From Candidatus Methanomethylophilaceae archaeon (lineage in GTDB: Archaea > Thermoplasmatota > Thermoplasmata > Methanomassiliicoccales > Methanomethylophilaceae): DNA of 64,000 nt. Positions 36,733 through 36,992 of this stretch are shown piece after piece; within the stretch, counting starts at the first letter, position 1; each line of letters begins with the position of its first letter. The stretch lies in assembly GCA_944322255.1 (NCBI GenBank), contig CALUOK010000003.1, forward strand, positions 62,001 to 126,000, read 5' to 3'. Under the pieces are notes generated by a model. That model was not told the origin of the DNA and searched no databases. It was given only the letters and a program-made list of their open reading frames with translations. Both the position numbers and the translations under genes were made by a program.

Positions 36733-36760
36733 GATAATCGGGTGACCTATCGCATCATGT

Positions 36761-36797
36761 TATATATACACGCGCACACGCGCGCGTACACGCGCAT
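36761..36797 (-). promoter_or_regulatory. 37-bp alternating purine-pyrimidine tract carrying the gyrB TATA box
   Basis: The plus strand from 36761 to 36797 alternates pyrimidine and purine without a single break: TATATATACA, then CGCGCACACG, CGCGCGTACA and CGCGCAT. The TATATATA end lies 29-36 bases before the gyrB ATG at 36732 and fits its TATA box (the complement also reads TATATATAA). CG/CA-rich strictly alternating DNA is the classic B-to-Z transition sequence under negative supercoiling. Confidence 0.85.
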
Positions 36798-36992
36798 TAA
36801 GAAGAACCTCGATCGATCGACCACCGAACCGTCTGCTCTCAGGCCGGTCTCCCGAGAACAGGATCGGCCTGCCTGGAACCGCACTGACGTTTCATCGCCA
36901 TCTGGCCCGCGCATGGTCCGATCGACGCGGGGAACTGCGGAGGAACGGCGTTCCGCCTCGGTCAAGTATTAAGCCTGGCTCGGGAGATACGG

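Follow-up and report, generated by a model that had tools for sequence, protein, structure and literature searches.

The question raised by the locus described here is whether the promoter of a DNA gyrase operon can carry, in its own DNA, a sensor of the supercoiling that gyrase sets. The stretch analysed (the window; 64,000 nucleotides of contig CALUOK010000003.1 from a Candidatus Methanomethylophilaceae archaeon) contains a tract of alternating purines and pyrimidines fused to the promoter of gyrB. A preliminary description of this DNA had claimed that the alternation is strict over 37 bp, at 36761-36797, and ends in the gyrB TATA box, which is borne out by direct reading: the unbroken alternation is TATATATACACGCGCACACGCGCGCGTACACGCGCAT on the plus strand, and the TATA box is TATATATA, 29-36 bp before the ATG of gyrB (A at 36732). 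The features concerned are as follows.

36761..36797, no strand assigned: alternating purine/pyrimidine tract of 37 bp, Z-DNA-prone, upstream element of the gyrB promoter (direct reading)
36761..36768, minus strand: gyrB TATA box, inside the alternating tract and in phase with it (sequence; relatives also have a TATA box adjoining the tract)
34825..36732, minus strand: gyrB, DNA gyrase subunit B (open reading frame; Pfam DNA_gyraseB, Toprim)
32349..34832, minus strand: gyrA, DNA gyrase subunit A with beta-propeller (open reading frame; Pfam DNA_topoisoIV, DNA_gyraseA_C)
about 36993..38303, plus strand: thiC, divergent neighbour of gyrB (Pfam ThiC)

The gyrB and gyrA genes overlap on the minus strand and, judging from their position, form one operon, which is taken as a gyrase operon because GyrA carries the gyrase beta-propeller domain. 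The location is that expected of a homeostatic gyrase promoter, with the tract adjoining the gyrB TATA box and gyrB in an operon with gyrA, and the tract occupies the position next to the TATA box that is read by TFB. From archaeal TATA spacing, the transcription start of gyrB is expected near 36735-36741. Here it is proposed, as a reading that we consider somewhat probable, that the tract is a DNA-encoded supercoiling sensor on the gyrBA promoter, that is, a DNA-structure element kept by selection, which in cells would form Z-DNA, exclude TFB/TBP and respond with a homeostatic sign.

Rarity of the tract and specificity for the gyrase promoter

After the tract, the longest alternating run of the window measures 16 bp, and in 200 windows simulated with a second-order Markov model the longest alternating runs were 12-23 bp. 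Within the 1.88-Mb genome, the tract is the sole site with strict alternation at the level of 24-mers (at least 24 bp); at the level of 18-mers there is a handful of other sites, and shorter alternating tracts of 17-20 bp are present elsewhere in this genome. The simulations and the genome-wide uniqueness of strict alternation over at least 24 bp rule out a chance origin. A 400-kb sample of a second genus has a gyrB tract of 38 bp and a next longest run of 16 bp, and in 400 kb of a third genus the gyrB tract, of 24 bp, is exceeded only by one (AT)n repeat. The topA promoters of the genus have no such tract (median run of 8 bp), and alternation upstream of other TATA boxes averages 0.51; this mean, with the lack of anything similar in 400 kb from another genus, rules out a general feature of all promoters.

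Other alternating tracts of at least 22 bp in the genus, among those looked at (L199-L217), are mostly intergenic, and several of them adjoin TATA-like sequences. One genome (G021) has an identical 22-bp alternating tract with its flank on three contigs (L208, L209 and L210), a pattern that a repeated or mobile element would give.

Conservation of the tract among relatives

The Methanomethylophilaceae, the family within which the tract occurs, are methane-making archaea of gut and wetland. GyrB was detected in all 31 genomes of the genus and in 139 of the 147 genomes of the order. In one clade of the family, a CG-rich alternating tract was found beside the gyrB TATA box in 84 of 86 readable promoters, mostly touching or overlapping the box, with lengths of 10-48 bp (median of 23 bp in the 81 analysed together) and with a sequence, length and phase that differ between species. 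The tract has the same promoter position in ten and more genera and is composed of mixed TG, CA, CG and TA units. Cultivated isolates that carry the tract are Methanomethylophilus alvi and Methanoplasma, while Methanomassiliicoccus luminyensis is a tractless relative. The tract is absent from the gyrB promoters of three side genera of the family (g4, g10 and g13) and from those sampled in all five of the order's other families. A further family of the class lacks it too, in 28 gyrB promoters whose median run is 8 bp. In a tree of GyrB, the tract-bearing rows form one strongly supported clade; with about 190 residues and a midpoint root, the number of tract origins that it gives is indicative only. 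The preliminary description had named absence or non-conservation of the tract in close relatives as what would speak against its idea, and the reverse was found, the alternation being kept clade-wide while the letters turn over.

Selection on the purine/pyrimidine class

The spacers from one CG to the next in the tracts of the clade are even (in phase) in 232 cases and odd in 37, and 188 of these 269 are fully alternating, the corresponding figure for other promoters in the genome of the window being 52 of 1321. The A and T positions of the tracts likewise keep the alternation. Between sister species, the substitutions inside the tracts comprise 182 transitions and 42 transversions (81% transitions), against 154 transitions and 236 transversions in the remainder of the same 40-mers and 210 and 304, respectively, in the stretch downstream of the TATA box. 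These counts come from disjoint sister species, each pair being taken in both directions, and the tests were made on halved counts, which gave P about 1e-12 for the excess of transitions inside the tracts over the flanks (about 40% transitions). A realignment control with simulated neutral change yielded 39% transitions. CpG hypermutability or decay as the source of the excess is ruled out by the site counts, as the genome shows no CpG depletion, four-fold CpG sites have 19% transitions and the non-CpG sites of the tracts have 87%.

Across species, neither a fixed base nor a fixed phase relative to the TATA box was found, and the bases turn over within the purine/pyrimidine class, contrary to a sequence-specific operator at a fixed place. 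There is no palindrome excess beyond that from alternation (mean z of 0.05 over 68 tracts), and a dimeric palindromic operator or a cruciform is ruled out, the self-complementarity being not above that from alternation. The class-restricted turnover, the lack of a fixed base or phase and the lack of palindrome excess therefore indicate, at the level of sequence comparison, that selection is on the purine/pyrimidine class, which is to say on the alternation itself, rather than on sequence.

Predicted B-Z transition

Strict CG-rich alternation of at least about 8-12 bp was taken as the mark of Z-DNA-forming sequence; the window has 37 bp of it and the relatives 10-48 bp, and a B-Z transition is predicted at attainable negative superhelicity. 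In a first calculation, in the style of Z-hunt and with partly assumed parameters, the tract had the lowest Z threshold among 18,518 windows of a 464-kb sample. The thresholds of the 81 family tracts were -0.038 to -0.045, a narrow range that is partly mathematical since long tracts saturate, while those of tractless gyrB promoters were -0.052 or beyond. A second calculation used the dinucleotide and nucleation energies of SIBZ (PMC3024258) with competing strand separation, for which denaturation energies were assumed, in a 5-kb domain. The probability of Z-DNA in the tract was 0.01, 0.42 and 0.99 at sigma of -0.030, -0.035 and -0.040, respectively, and the tract was computed to flip before anything else within 5 kb. 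The predicted switch is lost when the tract is scrambled, and the TATA box is predicted not to melt. The Z-forming propensity, which the preliminary description had put forward as a check, thus places the switch within a plausible range of superhelicity.

Proposed mechanism and alternative explanations

In the proposed sensor, roughly 24-36 bp of the tract would flip from B- to Z-DNA once unconstrained negative superhelicity passes about -0.035, giving a left-handed helix with a B-Z junction at the TATA box. The Z-form would hinder the loading of TFB/TBP, because the tract borders the TATA box and covers the place that TFB recognises, and it would also absorb local torsion. Transcription of gyrBA would drop under strong supercoiling and recover on relaxation, with no protein regulator needed. 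The sign of the response would probably be homeostatic; in haloarchaea, gyrase genes go up upon gyrase inhibition (PMC9348778, PMC3184054). Of the supercoiling sensor first suggested in the preliminary description, the conservation of the alternation throughout the clade and a plausible switch point have stood, whereas Z-DNA in the cell and homeostatic feedback on gyrB are still what we infer.

Several observations weigh against the proposed sensor. In part of the genus, some TATA boxes of pheT and trpS have weaker CG-rich alternating elements just upstream, whose lengths reach 19 bp and whose medians are 10 and 9 bp, versus 23 bp at gyrB (L179:6621-8273 and L197:8358-9479 in the genome of the window, and L219-L278 in congeners); given these, sensing for gyrase may not be the sole role of the element, and they possibly represent a wider promoter class. 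Several members of the clade have a tract of just 10-15 bp, and the two remaining promoters of the 86, from two species of one genus, retain only 9 bp. Even relative to shuffles that preserve the purine/pyrimidine class, the motifs CGCGCG and ACGCGC show a mild excess, a pattern that would also result from a protein reading the bases. Finally, the precedent of the Halobacterium bop promoter records the opposite sign, that is, stimulation by non-B DNA.

A protein is the subject of an explanation that we regard as unlikely yet deserving of weight, in which an unknown transcription factor or new nucleoid protein binds CGCG-rich alternating DNA and the tract is not a B-Z switch. It would fit the occurrence of CGCGCG in 65 and ACGCGC in 67 trimmed tracts, as well as the pheT and trpS elements, which are placed upstream of the TATA box as in a regulon. 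Against such a protein stand the lack of any fixed base, length or phase relative to the TATA box, the turnover of letters within their class, the alternation kept at A and T positions too, and the lack of the palindrome excess expected of a dimer site.

It is also conceivable, with a distinctly low probability, that Z-prone DNA activates this promoter as is reported for bop, with a non-B form or stored torsion helping initiation, so that gyrB would rise with supercoiling in a positive feedback or a growth-linked boost. The bop precedent (a 1996 study cited in PMC9348778) and the weaker elements of the growth-related pheT and trpS are in its favour. However, positive feedback on gyrase would be unstable, and the haloarchaeal gyrase genes respond to gyrase inhibition by going up.

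Type II topoisomerases are known to favour some alternating purine/pyrimidine DNA, and the tract is specific to the gyrase promoter, both of which agree with gyrase itself binding or cleaving the tract and, if there is a surplus of free enzyme, repressing the promoter of its own genes; this is nonetheless very improbable, as the tractless members of the order have gyrase as well.

The divergent thiC gene gives rise to a still weaker candidate, in which the tract would be a torsional insulator separating the promoters of gyrB and thiC and would do no sensing for gyrase. The divergent intergenic region is short in most species, and divergent transcription would concentrate negative torsion there. 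The distance from the tract to the TATA box is tight for gyrB, however, while the distance to thiC is not kept; the tract is retained in eight congeners with another gene in place of thiC, and thiC is a divergent neighbour of gyrB in tractless families too. For the same reasons, an element belonging to thiC was rejected as the principal reading. Lastly, a neutral low-complexity repeat, of the kind that slippage can create, is hardly credible for a tract with one promoter position in so many genera, mixed units, depleted transversions to which CpG decay is not the cause, and nothing comparable bar the (AT)n repeat in the 400-kb samples of two other genera; neutral microsatellite drift is ruled out by the mixed units and by the ratio of 182:42 inside the tracts versus 154:236 outside.

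Chromatin context

The proposed sensor would depend on unconstrained superhelicity, and the chromatin proteins of the clade were considered. None of the tract-clade genomes yielded a match to Alba (PF01918). Within the family it occurs in two genera without the tract (g10 and g13), and most genomes from the other families have it as well. Because some tractless genomes lack Alba too, the link between Alba and the tract is one-way, and it may be a single historical coincidence. No known nucleoid protein is reported for the Methanomethylophilaceae, a single candidate making up 0.14% of protein in M. alvus (PMC7613761), and M. alvus is reported to have no histone, HTa or Alba (PMC4153887). The HU family has a single match among the 147 genomes (L349; G058:C1, around 12260-12478), on a contig whose open frames lack any match in 1.2 Mb of family sequence and which is probably viral or foreign, and HU was rejected on these grounds as an Alba replacement. 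Since the clade lacks Alba and the family is reported without known chromatin protein, most superhelicity in the cells of the tract clade is likely unconstrained by proteins.

A further, more tentative proposal, to which we give a little less than even weight, is that of a protein-free thermostat, in which a Z-DNA switch in the gyrase promoter would read superhelicity directly and set gyrase expression, with DNA shape rather than sequence being maintained, and which would have arisen in an Alba-less lineage. It would be a possible answer to torsion control in cells with nearly naked chromosomes.

Comparison with known systems

The RY box of the bop promoter, described by Yang, Kim, Molinari and DasSarma in 1996, is reportedly about 11 bp long and found at a photosynthesis-type gene of one lineage. 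PMC9348778 presents bop as a supercoiling-sensitive promoter with a proposed non-B element, and the likeness is that an archaeal promoter has, at its TATA region, an alternating purine/pyrimidine box tied to supercoiling and non-B DNA. The gyrB tract differs from it in length (10-48 bp), in being CG-rich, in lying upstream of and adjoining the TATA box, in belonging to the gyrase operon, and in being selected across a clade.

We know of no Z-prone tract that acts as a determinant at the homeostatic gyrase promoters of bacteria or haloarchaea. At gyrB, unlike those promoters, a separate and conserved piece of DNA is the candidate sensor, and the response is a proposal. The logic is the same, expression answering to supercoiling: E. 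coli gyrA and gyrB are stimulated by relaxation and haloarchaeal gyrase genes are induced by novobiocin, as described in PMC9348778, PMC3184054 and PMC6170449. In mammals, Z-DNA-prone regions lie just upstream of transcription start sites according to the SIBZ survey (PMC3024258), and at gyrB the B-Z-susceptible DNA is likewise immediately upstream of the expected start; in mammals, however, it is an enrichment over many genes, whereas here it concerns one gene in nearly every species of the clade, with selection on the alternation. The literature, as far as it was covered, which was in part, yielded no account of a gyrase promoter with a Z-DNA tract, and this is hence weak evidence of novelty.

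A microbial role of Z-DNA has long wanted a clear case with evolutionary evidence. At gyrB, whose product sets supercoiling, selection across dozens of species keeps the alternation though the letters change, and the sensing of supercoiling by Z-DNA in living cells becomes directly testable in cultivated gut methanogens.

Other observations on the gyrB region

The thiC-gyrB intergenic region has no Rfam match, and a structured RNA or riboswitch for thiC was rejected on that basis. Tractless families repeatedly show a GCCAGAT-like element in the space that separates thiC from gyrB. In many genomes of two families (f5 and f6), the GyrB matches end near residue 435 (e.g., G045, G049, G053, G125, G130, G134 and G141) and the open frame continues to about 800-1100 residues, likely reflecting a large in-frame insertion such as an intein.
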